Source: Phycisphaerae bacterium (GTDB taxonomy: Bacteria > Planctomycetota > Phycisphaerae > Phycisphaerales > UBA1924). Taken from it: a stretch of DNA of 64,000 bases. The notes under the pieces were generated by a model. The model had not been told where the DNA came from. It saw nothing but the letters and a program-made list of their open reading frames with translations, and searched no databases. Positions 11-4,886 of the stretch are shown here, piece after piece; positions within the stretch are counted from its first letter, which is position 1; the number at the start of each line of letters is the position of its first letter. Location of the stretch: assembly GCA_016794925.1 (NCBI GenBank), contig JAEUIW010000004.1, forward strand, positions 1-64,000, read 5' to 3'. Made by a program: the position numbers and the translations under genes.

Positions 11-994
11 CTACACCGCCTTGATTACGCTCACCGCCGCGTACAGGCCCGCAACCCGTTCCCGCTCCACCACCCGCGCCGAAAACGCCGGGTTCAGCGG
101 CTGCAACCGCACCAGCTCCTCCCCTCCTTCCCCCGTCTCGAAGTACACGCGCTTGAACGTGCTGGCGTGGTCCGGCTCCAGACGCGCGAAGCAGTCCGCT
201 CCGTCCTTCACCGCCCGAGCCGGGCTGAACACCACGATGTCCCCCTCCTCGTACTTGGGCCGCATCGACTCCCCCACCACCCGCGCCGCGAAGGCGTCCG
301 GATCGTTGATGTCCGGGCACCGCACGTACTCGTCGGCCACCCGCGCCGGGTACGACAGGTCGGTGAATTCCGTCGGGTAGCCCGCCGCCACCCGGTTGAT
401 CAGCGGCACCTCCAGCGGCAGCAGCCGCGCCACGCCGCCGATTCCCGCCCCGACGCCATCCCCTCCCGCGCTCCCCCCGCGCTCCCGACCCCCCGCGCCC
501 GCTCCCTCCTCCGGCGCCAGTCGCGACACCAGACGCGCCAGCCGACCCGACCGGTACGCCTCGTCCAACCCTCCACTCGCCTTTCCTCCGGTGTCCGATC
601 GCACCAGCGTCGCCAGTTCCCGCGCCGCCCGCACCCGCGCCGCCAGCGACACCATCTCGCGCTTGATCTCACCCGGTGTCGCCTGCCACCGCGCGCTCGC
701 CATCAGGCTCCCCGCGGCCAGGCCCAGCGCCGATTCCAGTCGCCGCACGATCGCGTCGCGCGGCGGTCGTTCGCGCTTCCCGGTCTCAATCGCCGAGAGA
801 TAGCTCTTCGTACACAACGCCCGCCGCGCCAGGTCCGACAGCGACAGCCCCGCCCGCTCCCGCTCGTGGCGGATGACTACACCGAGCGCGAGTTCCCTTC
901 CTTCTCTTGCAGGTGCGTGGGCATGTTCCACGAAAATGCCACCACAATTGGGGATGTTTGCGGGCGTGTCTGGGTGTTGATTTTCTGTAATCAC
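11..994 (-). CDS. LexA/CI-type repressor (XRE HTH + S24 peptidase), probable prophage repressor
   Basis: A 327-residue protein with an N-terminal XRE-type helix-turn-helix (about residues 37-92) and a C-terminal S24/LexA peptidase fold (about 195-327). The catalytic Ser-Lys pair is visible as Ser243 in VVGESMRP and Lys281 in STFKRVYF. An Ala-Gly bond in RVAAGYP (204-205) matches the LexA/CI autocleavage site. In this family RecA-stimulated self-cleavage lifts repression after DNA damage; that role here is inferred. A Gly-rich low-complexity linker (about 163-188) separates the two domains. The start is GTG at 994-992. A good promoter places transcription initiation at or next to this codon, so the message is probably leaderless, like lambda cI from PRM. 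It is divergent from the phage-like operon at 1130-4886, which it probably controls. Confidence 0.9.
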   Translation of the reverse strand: MITENQHPDTPANIPNCGGIFVEHAHAPAREGRELALGVVIRHERERAGLSLSDLARRALCTKSYLSAIETGKRERPPRDAIVRRLESALGLAAGSLMASARWQATPGEIKREMVSLAARVRAARELATLVRSDTGGKASGGLDEAYRSGRLARLVSRLAPEEGAGAGGRERGGSAGGDGVGAGIGGVARLLPLEVPLINRVAAGYPTEFTDLSYPARVADEYVRCPDINDPDAFAARVVGESMRPKYEEGDIVVFSPARAVKDGADCFARLEPDHASTFKRVYFETGEGGEELVRLQPLNPAFSARVVERERVAGLYAAVSVIKAV

Positions 995-1077: not shown

Positions 1078-1129
1078 ATCGGTGATTGTTCACTGTTTGA
1101 AGAACATCAATCACACAGGAACGTGTTCA

Positions 1130-1630
1130 ATGACACCAAGAACACACGCAATCATGGATTATCAGACCACAGATTCCTGTCCAATCCTCAAAAACGAGGA
1201 ATTGGAGGCTCGTGGAAGGGCCCGCGACCGCTGGCTTATCTCGTGGATTCCCTCGCTCCCGGAGGGCGACCGCGAACTTGTCCGCGCCGTCGTCGAGCGC
1301 GGCACGCCCGAGCGCGAGGTCGCCGAGCTGCAGGGCCTTCCCCTGTCCGCCGTGCGCGCCCGCGTCCGGCGTCTCAAGCACCGGCTCCGTTCGCCCGTTT
1401 TCCGTGTGGTCGCGGCCCGCAGCGCCGAATGGCCCGAGGACGTCCGCGCGGTCGCCCGCGCCTGTTTCCTCCGTGGGATGAGCATCCGCGCCGCCGCCGG
1501 CAGCCTCGGGCTCTCGTACCACCACGCGCGCACGCTGCGGGGCGCGGCGACCCACCTTGCGCGCGCCGTCGTCGAACGTGCCGCGCGCCCGCGGCCGGCT
1601 CCCGATGCGCCCGGGCGCGCCCGCGCGTGA
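1130..1630 (+). CDS. Double helix-turn-helix protein (small-terminase- or sigma-region-4-like)
   Basis: A 166-residue basic protein. The first HTH-like segment (around GTPEREVAELQGLPLSAVRA) resembles sigma-70 region 4. A second lies around RGMSIRAAAGSLGLSYHHAR. The tail is Pro/Ala/Arg-rich. The ATG at 1130 was chosen because it follows ACAGGA (1115-1120) at about ten bases and lies just inside the rightward promoter; an open frame extends further upstream but crosses the promoter. It is the first gene of the operon that ends in terminase genes. A small terminase subunit or an operon regulator are therefore the two best guesses, and the sequence alone does not decide between them. Confidence 0.65.
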   Translation: MTPRTHAIMDYQTTDSCPILKNEELEARGRARDRWLISWIPSLPEGDRELVRAVVERGTPEREVAELQGLPLSAVRARVRRLKHRLRSPVFRVVAARSAEWPEDVRAVARACFLRGMSIRAAAGSLGLSYHHARTLRGAATHLARAVVERAARPRPAPDAPGRARA

Positions 1631-1691
1631 CGCCGCCTCGGATGCCGACGGTCATGAACTGAACCAGATTCCGCACGGGAAGGGGGGTCCG

Positions 1692-2462
1692 ATGGGACGC
1701 ATGAGTCTTCAGGCGCGTCGGGTGTCGGCGATGTTCGGACTGGATCCGCGCGCCGGCCGATGCGCCCGCCGCCGCACCCTCCGACGACTCGACCGCGCCG
1801 CGCGCCGGCTGCTCGATGCGCTCGCCCGCGCGGAAGCAGAGGGGGATGGAGGGGGTGTGGGGGGTGTGGGGGGAGTGGGGGGTGTGGGGTTGATCATCGG
1901 CGCCAGCGGCACGGGCAAGAGCACGCTGCTGCGGCGCATCGGCATCCTGGCCGAGCGTCGTGGCGTGCGCGTGGTTCGCGATGCCCCCGCCGCCCGGCCC
2001 ACCTCCCGCACCATCGACGCCGTGTCCGGCGACCTCGCCGATCGGCTCGGCGCGCTCGCGCGCGTGGGGCTCGCCGAGGCCGCCGCCTTCACCCGCCCGC
2101 TTGCCTCGCTCAGCGACGGCGAACGGTGGCGGCTCCGCCTCGCGCGCCTGTTCGACCGGGCCCGCGCCGTGCCGAGCCCGGCTCCGACGTCCGCCCGCGT
2201 GATCCTGCTCGCCGATGAGTTCGCGACCAGCCTGGACGCCCGCGCCGCCCGCAACCTGGCCTGGTTGTCCGGCCGTCGCGCCCGCGCGTCAGGGGTTGTC
2301 CTGCTTGCCTCGACCGTCCGCGACGACCTCGCGGGCCCGCTCGACCCGGACATCACGGCCCGGCTGAGCCGCCGCGCCGTGCGCCTGCACGGGCCGGCCC
2401 TGCCGCGGGAACTGCGATTCGAGACACGCGCCCCCGTTCGCTCGACAAGGAGAACACGATGA
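1692..2462 (+). CDS. ABC-type ATPase of a phage-like operon
   Basis: A 256-residue soluble ATPase with no membrane segments. Walker A is GASGTGKST (70-78), the signature-like motif is LSDGE (140-144), Walker B is VILLADEF (170-177) with Glu176 as catalytic base, and the D-loop is SLD (180-182). The usual H-loop histidine is not seen; the equivalent stretch reads VVLLASTVRD. A Gly-Gly-Val repeat (about 53-66) encoded by a G-rich 9-bp repeat precedes the Walker strand. The start ATG follows AAGGGGGG. The stop overlaps the acetyltransferase start (ATGA), so the two products are probably made and used together. This is not a transporter in any obvious way; its job in the module is unknown. Confidence 0.75.
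   Translation: MGRMSLQARRVSAMFGLDPRAGRCARRRTLRRLDRAARRLLDALARAEAEGDGGGVGGVGGVGGVGLIIGASGTGKSTLLRRIGILAERRGVRVVRDAPAARPTSRTIDAVSGDLADRLGALARVGLAEAAAFTRPLASLSDGERWRLRLARLFDRARAVPSPAPTSARVILLADEFATSLDARAARNLAWLSGRRARASGVVLLASTVRDDLAGPLDPDITARLSRRAVRLHGPALPRELRFETRAPVRSTRRTR
1841..1891 (+). repeat. G-rich 9-bp tandem repeat inside the ABC ATPase gene
   Basis: About four imperfect copies of GGGGGTGTG encode Gly-Gly-Val repeats just before the Walker A strand. The coding strand has at least five runs of four or more G and could form a quadruplex. The unit is nine bases, so copy-number change would keep the reading frame. Confidence 0.7.
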
Positions 2463-3229
2463 CCCGCCCCACGCCGCCCGACACGTCCGCCCGGGCGCGG
2501 CCCGCCCGCCGCCGGCCTCGCAACCCCGCGCGCGCGCTGCGCCTGCGCGAGGGCACGCTCGACTCGTACCACGACCTCGCGCCGTTCCACTACATCGCGA
2601 ACCCGCCCGGCCCGGTCGAACTGGTGCTGGTCGCCGAGGATCGCACGGGTGCGCGGCGGGACGATCGTCTCGCCGGCGTGCTCACGCTCTCTCGCCCGGT
2701 GCTCAACGGGCCGTGGCGTGCCGTGGCGTGGCCCGACCTGGCGGGCCCGGACCACGCACGCGACCTCAACGCCTCGTTGCGGACGATCTCCCGGCTCATC
2801 GTCGAGCCGCGCTGGCGGGGGATGGGCGTGGGCACGGCCTTGGTGCGCGCGGCCCTGCGGTGGTGCACGGGACGGGGCATCGGGCGCGTCGAGGCGCTGG
2901 CGTCGATGGGCCCGGTCAGCCCGGTCTTCGAGCGCGCGGGGATGCGCCGCGTCACGTTCCCGTGCGCCCGGCGCGAGGCCCGCCTCCGCGCGACGCTCGC
3001 CCGCCTCGACCTGATGCCGTGGGACCTGATCGATGCCCGCCGGGTGTGGCGCGACCGCGCCACCGGAGAGACGGTCGAGCGGGCCGTCCGGCGCTGGGCC
3101 AACGACAGCCGCGCCACTCGGGCCGGCGCGTCCGATCCGCTCGGCGCCGTGTGCGTGCGCGCCGCGCGGGCCCTGTGCGGGCGCGCCGGCGCGTACGTGT
3201 GGGAGGGACGCGCCCGCGACGCGGGCTGA
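2459..3229 (+). CDS. GNAT-family N-acetyltransferase of the phage-like operon
   Basis: A 256-residue protein with a GNAT acetyl-CoA-binding motif A: the strand SRLIVEP is followed by the pyrophosphate loop RWRGMGVG (about 118-125). The C-terminal hundred residues are Arg-rich and not recognised. The ATG overlaps the stop of the ABC ATPase gene and has its own AAGGAG six bases upstream, which indicates translational coupling. The substrate is unknown; GNAT enzymes acetylate amines on proteins, small molecules or modified bases. Its place between an ATPase and terminase genes suggests a role in the same phage-derived system, but that is inference. Confidence 0.75.
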   Translation: MTRPTPPDTSARARPARRRPRNPARALRLREGTLDSYHDLAPFHYIANPPGPVELVLVAEDRTGARRDDRLAGVLTLSRPVLNGPWRAVAWPDLAGPDHARDLNASLRTISRLIVEPRWRGMGVGTALVRAALRWCTGRGIGRVEALASMGPVSPVFERAGMRRVTFPCARREARLRATLARLDLMPWDLIDARRVWRDRATGETVERAVRRWANDSRATRAGASDPLGAVCVRAARALCGRAGAYVWEGRARDAG

Positions 3230-3253
3230 GCACCAGATCCGAAAGGGGGGAGC

Positions 3254-4429
3254 ATGGGGGAGCGAACACGCACGATCCGCACGGCGCCCGACGATTCAAC
3301 CGGCCCGACGCCCGGGTCGCGCGCCGCCGCCGGCGCGAACACCGAGGCGGGCGGGGGCGGGCGACCGCCCCGGAACGAGGACGAGCTGCACGCGTGGCTC
3401 ATCCGGGCCCTGCGGGTGCACGTCCCGCGGCGCGGGCTCGCGGACGGGGACGGGCCCTTCGAGTACCTCGCGCACGCGTTCTTCGAGGGCCGCCCGCCCG
3501 GCCGACGGGCCGGGTCGCCGGCCGCCCCGGGCGGGCGTGAGGCCCGCCCCGGCGACTGCGTCGTGTGGGCCAACCGCGGCGGGGGCAAGACGTTCCTCGC
3601 GGCGGTGGCCACCGTCCTCGACCTGGTGTTCAAGAAGGGGATCGAGGTCCGCCTGCTGGGCGGGTCGCTGGAGCAATCCCGGCGGATGCACGAGCACCTC
3701 TCGCGCCTGCTCAGGATGAAGGAACTGGCGGCCGACGTCGGCCCGCTCAAGCCGAAGATCACCGCCCGCGGCGCGGTGCTGGCCAACCGGTCCCGGGCCG
3801 AGGTCATGGCCCAGAGCGAGCGTTCGGTGCGCGGCACGCGCGTGCAGAAGGTGCGCTGCGACGAGGCCGACCTCTTCCAGCCGGACGTCTGGCACGCGGT
3901 GCAGCTCACCACGCGCTCGATCGACCTCGCCGGTCCCTGGGGCGACTCCGTGCTGGGGAGCGTCGAGGCCCTCAGCACCATGCACCGTCCGATGGGCCTG
4001 ATGCGCTCGATCGTGCGCGCGTGCGAGACCCCCGCCGTCGCTCTGGACCCGCTCGGTGGCGGCGAGCCCGCGCGCCGGCTCATCCGCTGGGGCGTGACGG
4101 ACGTGCTGGAGCCCTGCCCGGCGACGCGCTCGTGCCAACGGTGCTGCCTGTGGGACGAGTGCCTCGGGCGGGCCAAAGGGCGCGCCCCGGAGCAGGCCGG
4201 GCACGTCCGGATTGACGACGCCGCGGCCATGAAGACCCGCGTCCCGCTGGAGGTGTGGCGGAGCGAGATGCTGTGCCTGGGGGTGTCCCGGGGATCGTGC
4301 GTGTACCCGGACTTCGACCGGAAGGAGCACGTTTCGAAGGGGGGAGAGCATGATGATGGAGCGCTGGGTGGGGGGGATCGACTTCGGCTGGCGGAGCCCG
4401 ACGGTGGTCCTGTGGGCTCGGCTGGATGA
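3254..4429 (+). CDS. Terminase large subunit, ATPase half (DNA-packaging motor)
   Basis: A 391-residue protein with the ATPase half of a phage terminase large subunit. Walker A is ANRGGGKT (106-113) and Walker B is KVRCDEAD (199-206). A Cys cluster at 288, 294, 297, 298 and 303 may bind metal. The sequence runs to CVYPDFDRKEHV (about 349-360), where related terminases would be expected to continue into the nuclease domain. Here the last thirty or so residues are unrelated to that domain, because the nuclease lies in the +1 frame as a separate gene starting at 4350. The ATG is preceded by GAAAGGGGGGAGC, a strong G-rich ribosome site. No portal or capsid gene is next to it. Confidence 0.8.
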   Translation: MGERTRTIRTAPDDSTGPTPGSRAAAGANTEAGGGGRPPRNEDELHAWLIRALRVHVPRRGLADGDGPFEYLAHAFFEGRPPGRRAGSPAAPGGREARPGDCVVWANRGGGKTFLAAVATVLDLVFKKGIEVRLLGGSLEQSRRMHEHLSRLLRMKELAADVGPLKPKITARGAVLANRSRAEVMAQSERSVRGTRVQKVRCDEADLFQPDVWHAVQLTTRSIDLAGPWGDSVLGSVEALSTMHRPMGLMRSIVRACETPAVALDPLGGGEPARRLIRWGVTDVLEPCPATRSCQRCCLWDECLGRAKGRAPEQAGHVRIDDAAAMKTRVPLEVWRSEMLCLGVSRGSCVYPDFDRKEHVSKGGEHDDGALGGGDRLRLAEPDGGPVGSAG

Positions 4430-4886
4430 ACGCAACGTGCTGTGGGTCGAGGACGAGCTGGTGCGCCGTCAAACGGTGCTGGACGATCTGGTGCGCCAAG
4501 CCGAGGCGCGTCCCTGGCCGCGCCCCGAGTGGTTCGGCGCCGATCCCGCGGGCCACGCCGCCCACGAGCAGACGGGGCGGAGCTCCATCGGCGCGCTGGC
4601 GCGCCTGGGATGGCGGATCCGCGCCCGGCGCGCGGGGCTCCGCGAGGGAATCCACCTCGTCAAGGCCCGGTTGCGCCCGGGCGCCGGCGCGTCGCGCATC
4701 CGCGTGGCGTCCCGGTGCGATCTGCTGCTCGAGTCGCTGGAGCGATACCGCTACCCGGACCACGACCCGGAGACCGAGGTGCCGCTCAAGGACGGTCACG
4801 ACCACGCCTGCGACGCGTTGCGGTACATGGTGCTGAACCTCGACGCCCCCGGCGCGGACGGCCCGCGTTGCACGCGGTATGTCTGA
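4350..4886 (+). CDS. Terminase large subunit, nuclease half (RNase H fold)
   Basis: A 178-residue protein matching the C-terminal nuclease domain of terminase large subunits. The opening strand is GGIDFGWRSP with Asp11, followed by GADPAG (Asp65) and GHDHACDALRYM (Asp151/Asp155). These are the acidic positions expected to hold two metal ions. It overlaps the end of the ATPase-half gene by 80 bases in the +1 frame. It has its own start (ATGATGATG) preceded by AAGGGGGGAGAGC, the same kind of ribosome site as the other operon genes. The two halves may therefore be translated as separate, coupled subunits rather than being a broken gene. A one-base change in the G6 run (4339-4344) of an ancestral single gene is the alternative. 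Confidence 0.75.
   Translation: MMMERWVGGIDFGWRSPTVVLWARLDERNVLWVEDELVRRQTVLDDLVRQAEARPWPRPEWFGADPAGHAAHEQTGRSSIGALARLGWRIRARRAGLREGIHLVKARLRPGAGASRIRVASRCDLLLESLERYRYPDHDPETEVPLKDGHDHACDALRYMVLNLDAPGADGPRCTRYV

Follow-up and report, generated by a model that had tools for sequence, protein, structure and literature searches.

What does a phage-type terminase do in a bacterial chromosome when no head gene stands beside it? The question is raised by the left end of a 64,000-nucleotide stretch of DNA from a Phycisphaerae bacterium (contig JAEUIW010000004.1), referred to here as the window, where a tight operon encodes a small helix-turn-helix (HTH) protein, an ABC-type ATPase, a GNAT-fold protein and a large terminase (TerL), with the gene of a LexA/CI-type repressor divergent from it. 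Contig C289 (198,935 bp), of which the window makes up the first 64 kb, belongs to a draft genome of 3.66 Mb in 344 contigs; the G+C content of the window is ~70%, and its base 1 is C289:1, the contig end, the assembly holding no sequence further left. An earlier note on this DNA had offered four explanations for the operon: a decayed prophage, a phage satellite using foreign capsids, a packaging unit resembling a gene transfer agent (GTA), and a stand-alone domesticated motor. It is the third that we find supported. The operon and its repressor (hereafter the module) are probably the regulator and packaging locus of a vertically inherited, multi-locus, tailed-phage-derived GTA-like particle system, because the module is vertically inherited and under purifying selection, and because portal and capsid genes are co-inherited with it at a second locus.

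Searches of the window proteins against Pfam, PHROG and NCBIfam recovered the genes that the earlier note had recognised (repressor, HTH, ABC ATPase, GNAT, terminase and UbiA) at or near the places where it had put them. TerL lies on the forward strand in two frames, an ATPase half at 3254..4429 (phrog_7579 at 2.5e-4, a weak match) and an RNase H-like nuclease half at 4350..4886 (PF17289 6e-4; phrog_5653 1.3e-9; profile match 8.5e-64). The gene is identified as TerL because an alignment with 23 homologues shows strong conservation of both the ATPase and the nuclease motifs (Walker A WANRGGGKT, Walker B RCDEVELFD, and DFG, DPAG and DHxxDALRY in the nuclease). Compared with these homologues, the frame of the ATPase half stops early. 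The terminase is thus split, as the note had it, in the window genome, but relatives encode it as one open reading frame (ORF) of ~450-700 aa. The note was also right that no head gene follows locally: a UbiA-family prenyltransferase gene (from 4928) is the first of the host genes after TerL.

We then asked how the module is distributed and inherited among 121 related genomes, a group placed in the class Phycisphaerae by inference from named loci. A TerL homologue is present in 90 of the 121, one per genome apart from fragmented alignment segments, and most are single ORFs with 46-59% identity to the window protein. In a phylum-wide sample, all but two of the listed genomes of the class have a full-length TerL, and matches in other Planctomycetota are partial or distant only. 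The earlier note had proposed a search for the gene order across genomes, and synteny was read from twenty 20-kb neighbourhoods together with named loci. The order, repressor divergent from HTH, ABC, GNAT, [ParB-like, TerS-like] and TerL, recurs across families of the class, in complete genomes and in many genera, with flanks that are mostly unrelated host genes; the genes to the left, the side on which the earlier note had said that a full set of structural phage genes would refute its reading, are host genes as well. Homologues of the repressor (cluster C4) are divergent from the operon in the relatives' modules, those of the HTH gene (cluster C3) neighbour the genes for repressor, ABC ATPase and GNAT in 19 of 31 loci, and the ParB-like and TerS-like genes, absent in the window, are found outside family f1. 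Trees of TerL and RpoB from 30 genomes have 18 of 27 splits in common (label permutation mean 0.2, maximum 4) with no strongly supported conflict, and the patristic distances correlate closely (Mantel r 0.87, 0/5000 permutations). The second check that the note had proposed, dN/dS over homologues, gave 0.11-0.30 for TerL within two genera. Together, these comparisons indicate that the module is under purifying selection and vertically inherited. Separately, in several f1 genera and in one f5 genome (L055, L062, L064, L066, L070, L071) the module is bordered by conserved host genes C7-C10, one of them ferredoxin-like, which possibly mark its ancestral chromosomal position.

The earlier note's statement that portal and capsid genes are missing holds at the module itself; the same genome carries head genes at another locus. 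Of 61 relatives, 48 have an SPP1-type portal (PF05133), nearly always in single copy, the window genome being among them; the members of family f2 searched have neither this portal nor TerL. The second locus encodes the portal (phrog_104 1e-26), a scaffold-like protein (PF06810 4e-6), the major capsid protein (MCP), a ~215-aa protein, two proteins of ~130-140 aa, a holin/spanin-like protein of ~100 aa and a lipoprotein, the small proteins downstream of MCP being connector-like. The MCP is SU10-type (PF17236 3e-85, phrog_1328 8e-74), is found in 86 of the 121 genomes and has a dN/dS of 0.11-0.18. In families f5 and f6 and in one f9 genome (G396), several additional tail/fibre-like genes stand at this locus. 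Two other candidates for the module's companions were discarded: the HK97-type MCP PF05065, which occurs in sporadic prophages only (14/121 relatives) and is lacking in the window genome, and the PF04860 portal, whose sporadic, weak matches belong to unrelated prophages with a large terminase-like ORF of their own. A separate family of Phycisphaerae prophages has its own large terminase-like ORF, with a divergent portal (L219, L220, L221, L222).

Is the second locus part of the same system? TerL and MCP occur together in 79 of the 121 genomes, with 11 having TerL only, 7 MCP only and 24 neither (P = 3.5e-11); the corresponding counts for portal and MCP are 47, 1, 1 and 12 (P = 1e-10). These P values partly reflect phylogeny, and therefore the comparison of trees also matters. 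Distances of the portal and of the MCP correlate with those of RpoB (Mantel 0.73 and 0.72, each 0/3000 permutations), and the portal and TerL trees have 14 of 24 splits in common. The two loci are never adjacent in the 12 genomes with single or near-complete contigs, where TerL and MCP are 25-168 kb apart in 11 and 982 kb apart in one; the distance is below 130 kb in 10 of the 12, against 0.8 expected (P = 1e-10). Beyond the class, genomes of families f30, f51, f81, f83 and f91 (other Planctomycetota, e.g. L321, L322) have a single related SU10-type MCP. Such relatives (e.g. in f30) match at E values of about 1e-110 to 1e-150, usually along with a TerL-nuclease match, and the neighbourhood is conserved between the two f30 loci read. 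This suggests a second or older branch, and the system, or a relative of it, may extend outside the class.

The repressor gene (11..994, reverse strand) encodes an N-terminal HTH (HTH_31 5e-12) and an S24 autopeptidase (PF00717, Peptidase_S24, 1.9e-15), and matches the phrog_4 repressor at 8e-21. All the residues for self-cleavage are present, an Ala-Gly site (NRVAAGYP), a Ser (VVGESM) and a Lys (TFKRVY); among 17 homologues, the cleavage site is found in 16, the Ser motif in 15 and the Lys motif, by the pattern used, in 8. These residues suggest SOS-type induction. In the divergent intergenic region, at 1088..1105, lies a palindrome, GTTC-N10-GAAC (GTTCACTGTTTGAAGAAC), which recurs with the same spacing and in the same place in G011, G012, G040 and G055, representing several genera; elsewhere in G000, G011, G012 and G040 it has few exact matches, with no clear excess over a control pattern. 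The palindrome, a motif picked post hoc, is likely the repressor's operator. Another, shared motif, TGTGCGCACA, which is locally enriched upstream of the portal, was rejected as a GTA regulon signal, being scattered genome-wide and not GTA-specific. The first gene of the operon (1130..1630, forward strand) encodes a small protein with a sigma-70 region-4-like domain (Sigma70_r4_2 1e-7) and a second HTH (HTH_23 5e-4). In Caulobacter, the LexA-like repressor RogA governs the GTA by repressing the activators GafYZ (PMC9632790); for GafA, a sigma-like resemblance in DNA binding is reported (PMC9638019). By analogy, we propose that the sigma-4-like HTH protein is an activator.

A model of the system can be drawn from these elements. 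The S24 repressor would bind the palindrome in the divergent intergenic region, keeping the operon off. DNA damage or stress would lead to RecA-stimulated self-cleavage of the repressor, as its Ala-Gly site, Ser and Lys suggest, and free the operon. The sigma-4-like HTH protein would then activate both the operon that encodes it and the distant head operon, by analogy with Caulobacter, where RogA represses GafYZ. TerL, in other families with TerS and the ParB-like protein, would dock on the SPP1-type portal from the second locus and pump DNA into the SU10-type capsid, and the ABC ATPase and GNAT are predicted to modify DNA bases. With tens to hundreds of kb between the genes, one particle is unlikely to carry them all, and the content would therefore be mainly host DNA.

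The ABC ATPase (1692..2462, forward strand; phrog_11143 2e-13, phrog_293 7e-11; ABC/AAA families 1e-5 to 1e-13) has an ORF open from 1557, the best start, in line with homologues, being 1692. It is followed by the GNAT-fold protein (2459..3229, forward strand; Acetyltransf_1 4e-8), whose AlphaFold2 model has a pLDDT of 73. Foldseek gave phage Mu Mom (8bv8) as the best PDB match by E value (8e-5, TM 0.42/0.52), with other GNATs close behind, and no Mom family was among the Pfam or NCBIfam matches. The same pair of domains, often fused, is predicted to acyl-modify DNA bases (Iyer et al. 2013, cited in PMC7824862); the two are fused in our alignment as well, in several genera. The GNAT-fold protein is predicted to be a DNA-base acyl modifier that acts with the ABC ATPase. 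What differs from the published pair is that here it is inherited as a host locus, modification being a prediction.

Similar gene sets exist in free phages. In nickie (Pseudomonas), RHEph10 and V1VFA-S (Rhizobium), LE4 (Leptospira) and SSU5 (Salmonella), ParB-like, ABC, GNAT, HTH/TerS-like and TerL genes are found, in the order of the module wherever TerL is in view. In nickie, LE4, RHEph10 and V1VFA-S a portal follows TerL, whereas in Phycisphaerae the head genes lie far away, at a locus of their own, and the set is vertically inherited. This suggests that the ParB-ABC-GNAT-HTH-TerL-portal order of free phages is the ancestral arrangement, from which portal and head genes later separated. Genes for a ParB-like protein, an ABC ATPase and a GNAT are neighbours in a range of phages (L253-L258), in four of which TerL and portal are in view just downstream; the PHROG label on the phage GNAT is that of an ABC transporter subunit. 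The TerLs of these phages are only distantly related to that of Phycisphaerae. Among 50,697 phage records, no relative of the latter was found beyond one weak match, and viral contigs scanned with the TerL alignment yielded distant terminases only (21-31% identity). The TerL of Microcystis phage Mvi-JY20 was set aside as a relative, being a distant TerL without ABC/GNAT neighbours.

In the window genome the portal gene is at C44:100825-102453 and the MCP gene is in two pieces, the N-terminal one at C44:103067, near the contig end, and the C-terminal one at C233:13603-14598, beside connector genes. The same gene is broken at codons ~57-68 in eight genomes (G000, G002, G016, G035, G056, G068, G084, G098), with a gap of ~11 kb where the break is contiguous (G002, G016, G035, G098). 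Inserts are located at ~2,067,600-2,078,700 of G035 C1 (L276/L277), at L320:4181-15783 and at the end of C44 in the window genome (L266). A serine recombinase gene and DNA-methyltransferase-like genes lie within the insert in both G035 and G098, and over 319 bp the contig end in G000 matches the beginning of the G035 element with 97% identity. By interrupting MCP, such an ~11-kb element may put the particle system out of action or act as its switch. With TerL in two frames and MCP interrupted, the window organism's own copy is therefore probably impaired, or conditionally restored; many relatives have intact copies. The earlier note had argued from intact reading frames against simple decay: conservation of the order across families bears out this conclusion and leads us to reject a decayed prophage for the lineage, but the window genome's own copy looks damaged.

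How well does the GTA-like reading fit? Of the six features in a published definition of GTAs (PMC9662315), three are found here: particle proteins that appear Caudoviricete-derived (TerL, portal PF05133, MCP PF17236, scaffold PF06810); endogenisation, often at several loci, there being two in almost every genome examined; and vertical inheritance with co-diversification, as seen for TerL, portal and MCP against RpoB. As to a fourth, that the agent's own genome cannot be packaged in full, the distances between the loci would mostly be too great for a single head if that head is small. The last two features are encapsidation of mostly random host DNA, which the model predicts, and delivery of DNA to other cells, for which the tail genes found are incomplete. 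Several points weigh against the reading. Particles, packaged DNA and transfer are so far deductions from the genes. Eleven genomes have TerL and no MCP, and single-contig G092 (L055) holds an intact TerL module with neither the PF05133 portal nor the SU10-type MCP. The MCP and RpoB trees have only 8 of 26 splits in common, with one supported conflict. No complete tail set was found at the loci read, those of f1 type ending after the connector-like and holin/spanin-like genes. The head locus showed no copy of the repressor motif (GTTC-N10-GAAC), and the shared candidate motif there, TGTGCGCACA, was not GTA-specific, so that co-regulation of module and head locus stays a proposal. Lastly, both TerL and MCP are interrupted in the window genome.

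The main rival is that domesticated phage head and packaging genes make particles with a role other than transfer, such as DNA disposal, kin killing or a storage compartment. The same genomic evidence fits it, and since f1 has hardly any tail genes or none, it is doubtful that DNA could be delivered to recipients; but purifying selection on TerL and capsid, the portal and the holin/spanin-like gene argue for released, DNA-filled particles, and we hold this rival to be unlikely. A stand-alone motor or restriction-modification-like system, in which ABC-GNAT would modify self DNA and TerL, as a translocase-nuclease, would cut unmodified DNA, was favoured at first from synteny, given a module apart from the head genes and the DNA modification predicted for ABC-GNAT. 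It was dropped once PF05133 showed that most genomes have a single portal. Portal and MCP accompany TerL much more often than chance would allow, both follow the same phylogeny, and PADLOC gave no terminase match and only weak matches to generic ABC, HTH and ParB-like parts; only G092 keeps TerL without either head gene, and we regard this explanation as very unlikely.

Nor does recent acquisition account well for the module. The CI-type repressor and the phages of similar gene order would suit a temperate phage remnant maintained by repeated recent infection instead of vertical descent, but the module occurs essentially once per genome, its TerL tree agrees with that of RpoB, the 50,697 phage records gave one weak TerL match, and the modules read show no recognised integrase. 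A prophage is expected to have contiguous structural genes and an integrase; here the head locus is separate, and no recognised integrase appears in the ORF lists, no dedicated search having been run. Repeated infection is strongly disfavoured. Even less probable is the satellite relying on foreign capsids. A terminase lacking adjoining head genes would fit it, but the genome has its own portal and MCP elsewhere, and the single-copy module co-diversifies with its hosts and has no recognised integrase or replication genes. Satellites like the phage-inducible chromosomal islands are mobile, dependent on a helper and without a portal of their own, as against the own portal and vertical inheritance seen here.

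The GTA-like reading thus stands, and it can be extended: an ancient Planctomycetota GTA, independent of the classified families, whose own DNA-modification enzymes mark or protect the packaged DNA and which, in eight genomes, is disabled or switch-controlled by an ~11-kb serine-recombinase element at a fixed region of MCP codons. We put this fuller version forward tentatively, as one that may well fail in some part. A cultured strain, Poriferisphaera heterotrophicis ZRK32 (G114, CP066225.1), carries both loci (L060, L308) and is reported to release hexagonal particles of ~30 nm (PMC10945688). The genome of Phage-ZRK32 (OP650935) is without these TerL, portal and MCP genes and has no DNA in common with the two loci. 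If the reading is true, a terminase, portal and capsid set co-diversifying across the class means that gene transfer is possibly an inherited trait of a whole bacterial class, one known largely from environmental genomes, and adds another exaptation of a GTA, from a different type of phage. Why hosts keep GTAs is a long-standing question, and it would be testable in ZRK32. A practical corollary is that the head genes belonging to a terminase annotated as isolated may lie elsewhere in the genome.

How does this system compare with known GTAs? The Rhodogtaviriformidae are marked by an HK97-type capsid cluster next to terL. In the window genome PF05065 is absent, and the MCP is SU10-type. Three GTA families with a known genetic basis are formally classified, none of them in Planctomycetota (PMC9662315), and our literature search found no report of a GTA in Phycisphaerae. 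The GTAs of Rhodobacter and Caulobacter (RcGTA and CcGTA) resemble the Phycisphaerae system in having tailed-phage-derived structural genes at several chromosomal loci, vertical inheritance, and control of a sigma-like/HTH activator (GafYZ/GafA) by a LexA-like repressor, RogA (PMC9632790, PMC9638019). They differ in phylum and in capsid type, PF17236 here against the HK97-type PF05065 found in Caulobacter among the controls. They differ also in that the Phycisphaerae terminase lies with the regulator and the predicted DNA-modification genes, away from the head cluster, and RogA is without the cleavage residues that the Phycisphaerae repressor keeps. BaGTA of Bartonella and BhGTA of Brachyspira are likewise phage-like gene sets maintained by their hosts and exapted independently (PMC9662315); they belong to other hosts, and we set them beside the Phycisphaerae system by description, not by sequence. 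Judged by gene content and descent, a multi-locus GTA-like system unlike the known GTA families is the best explanation of the module.

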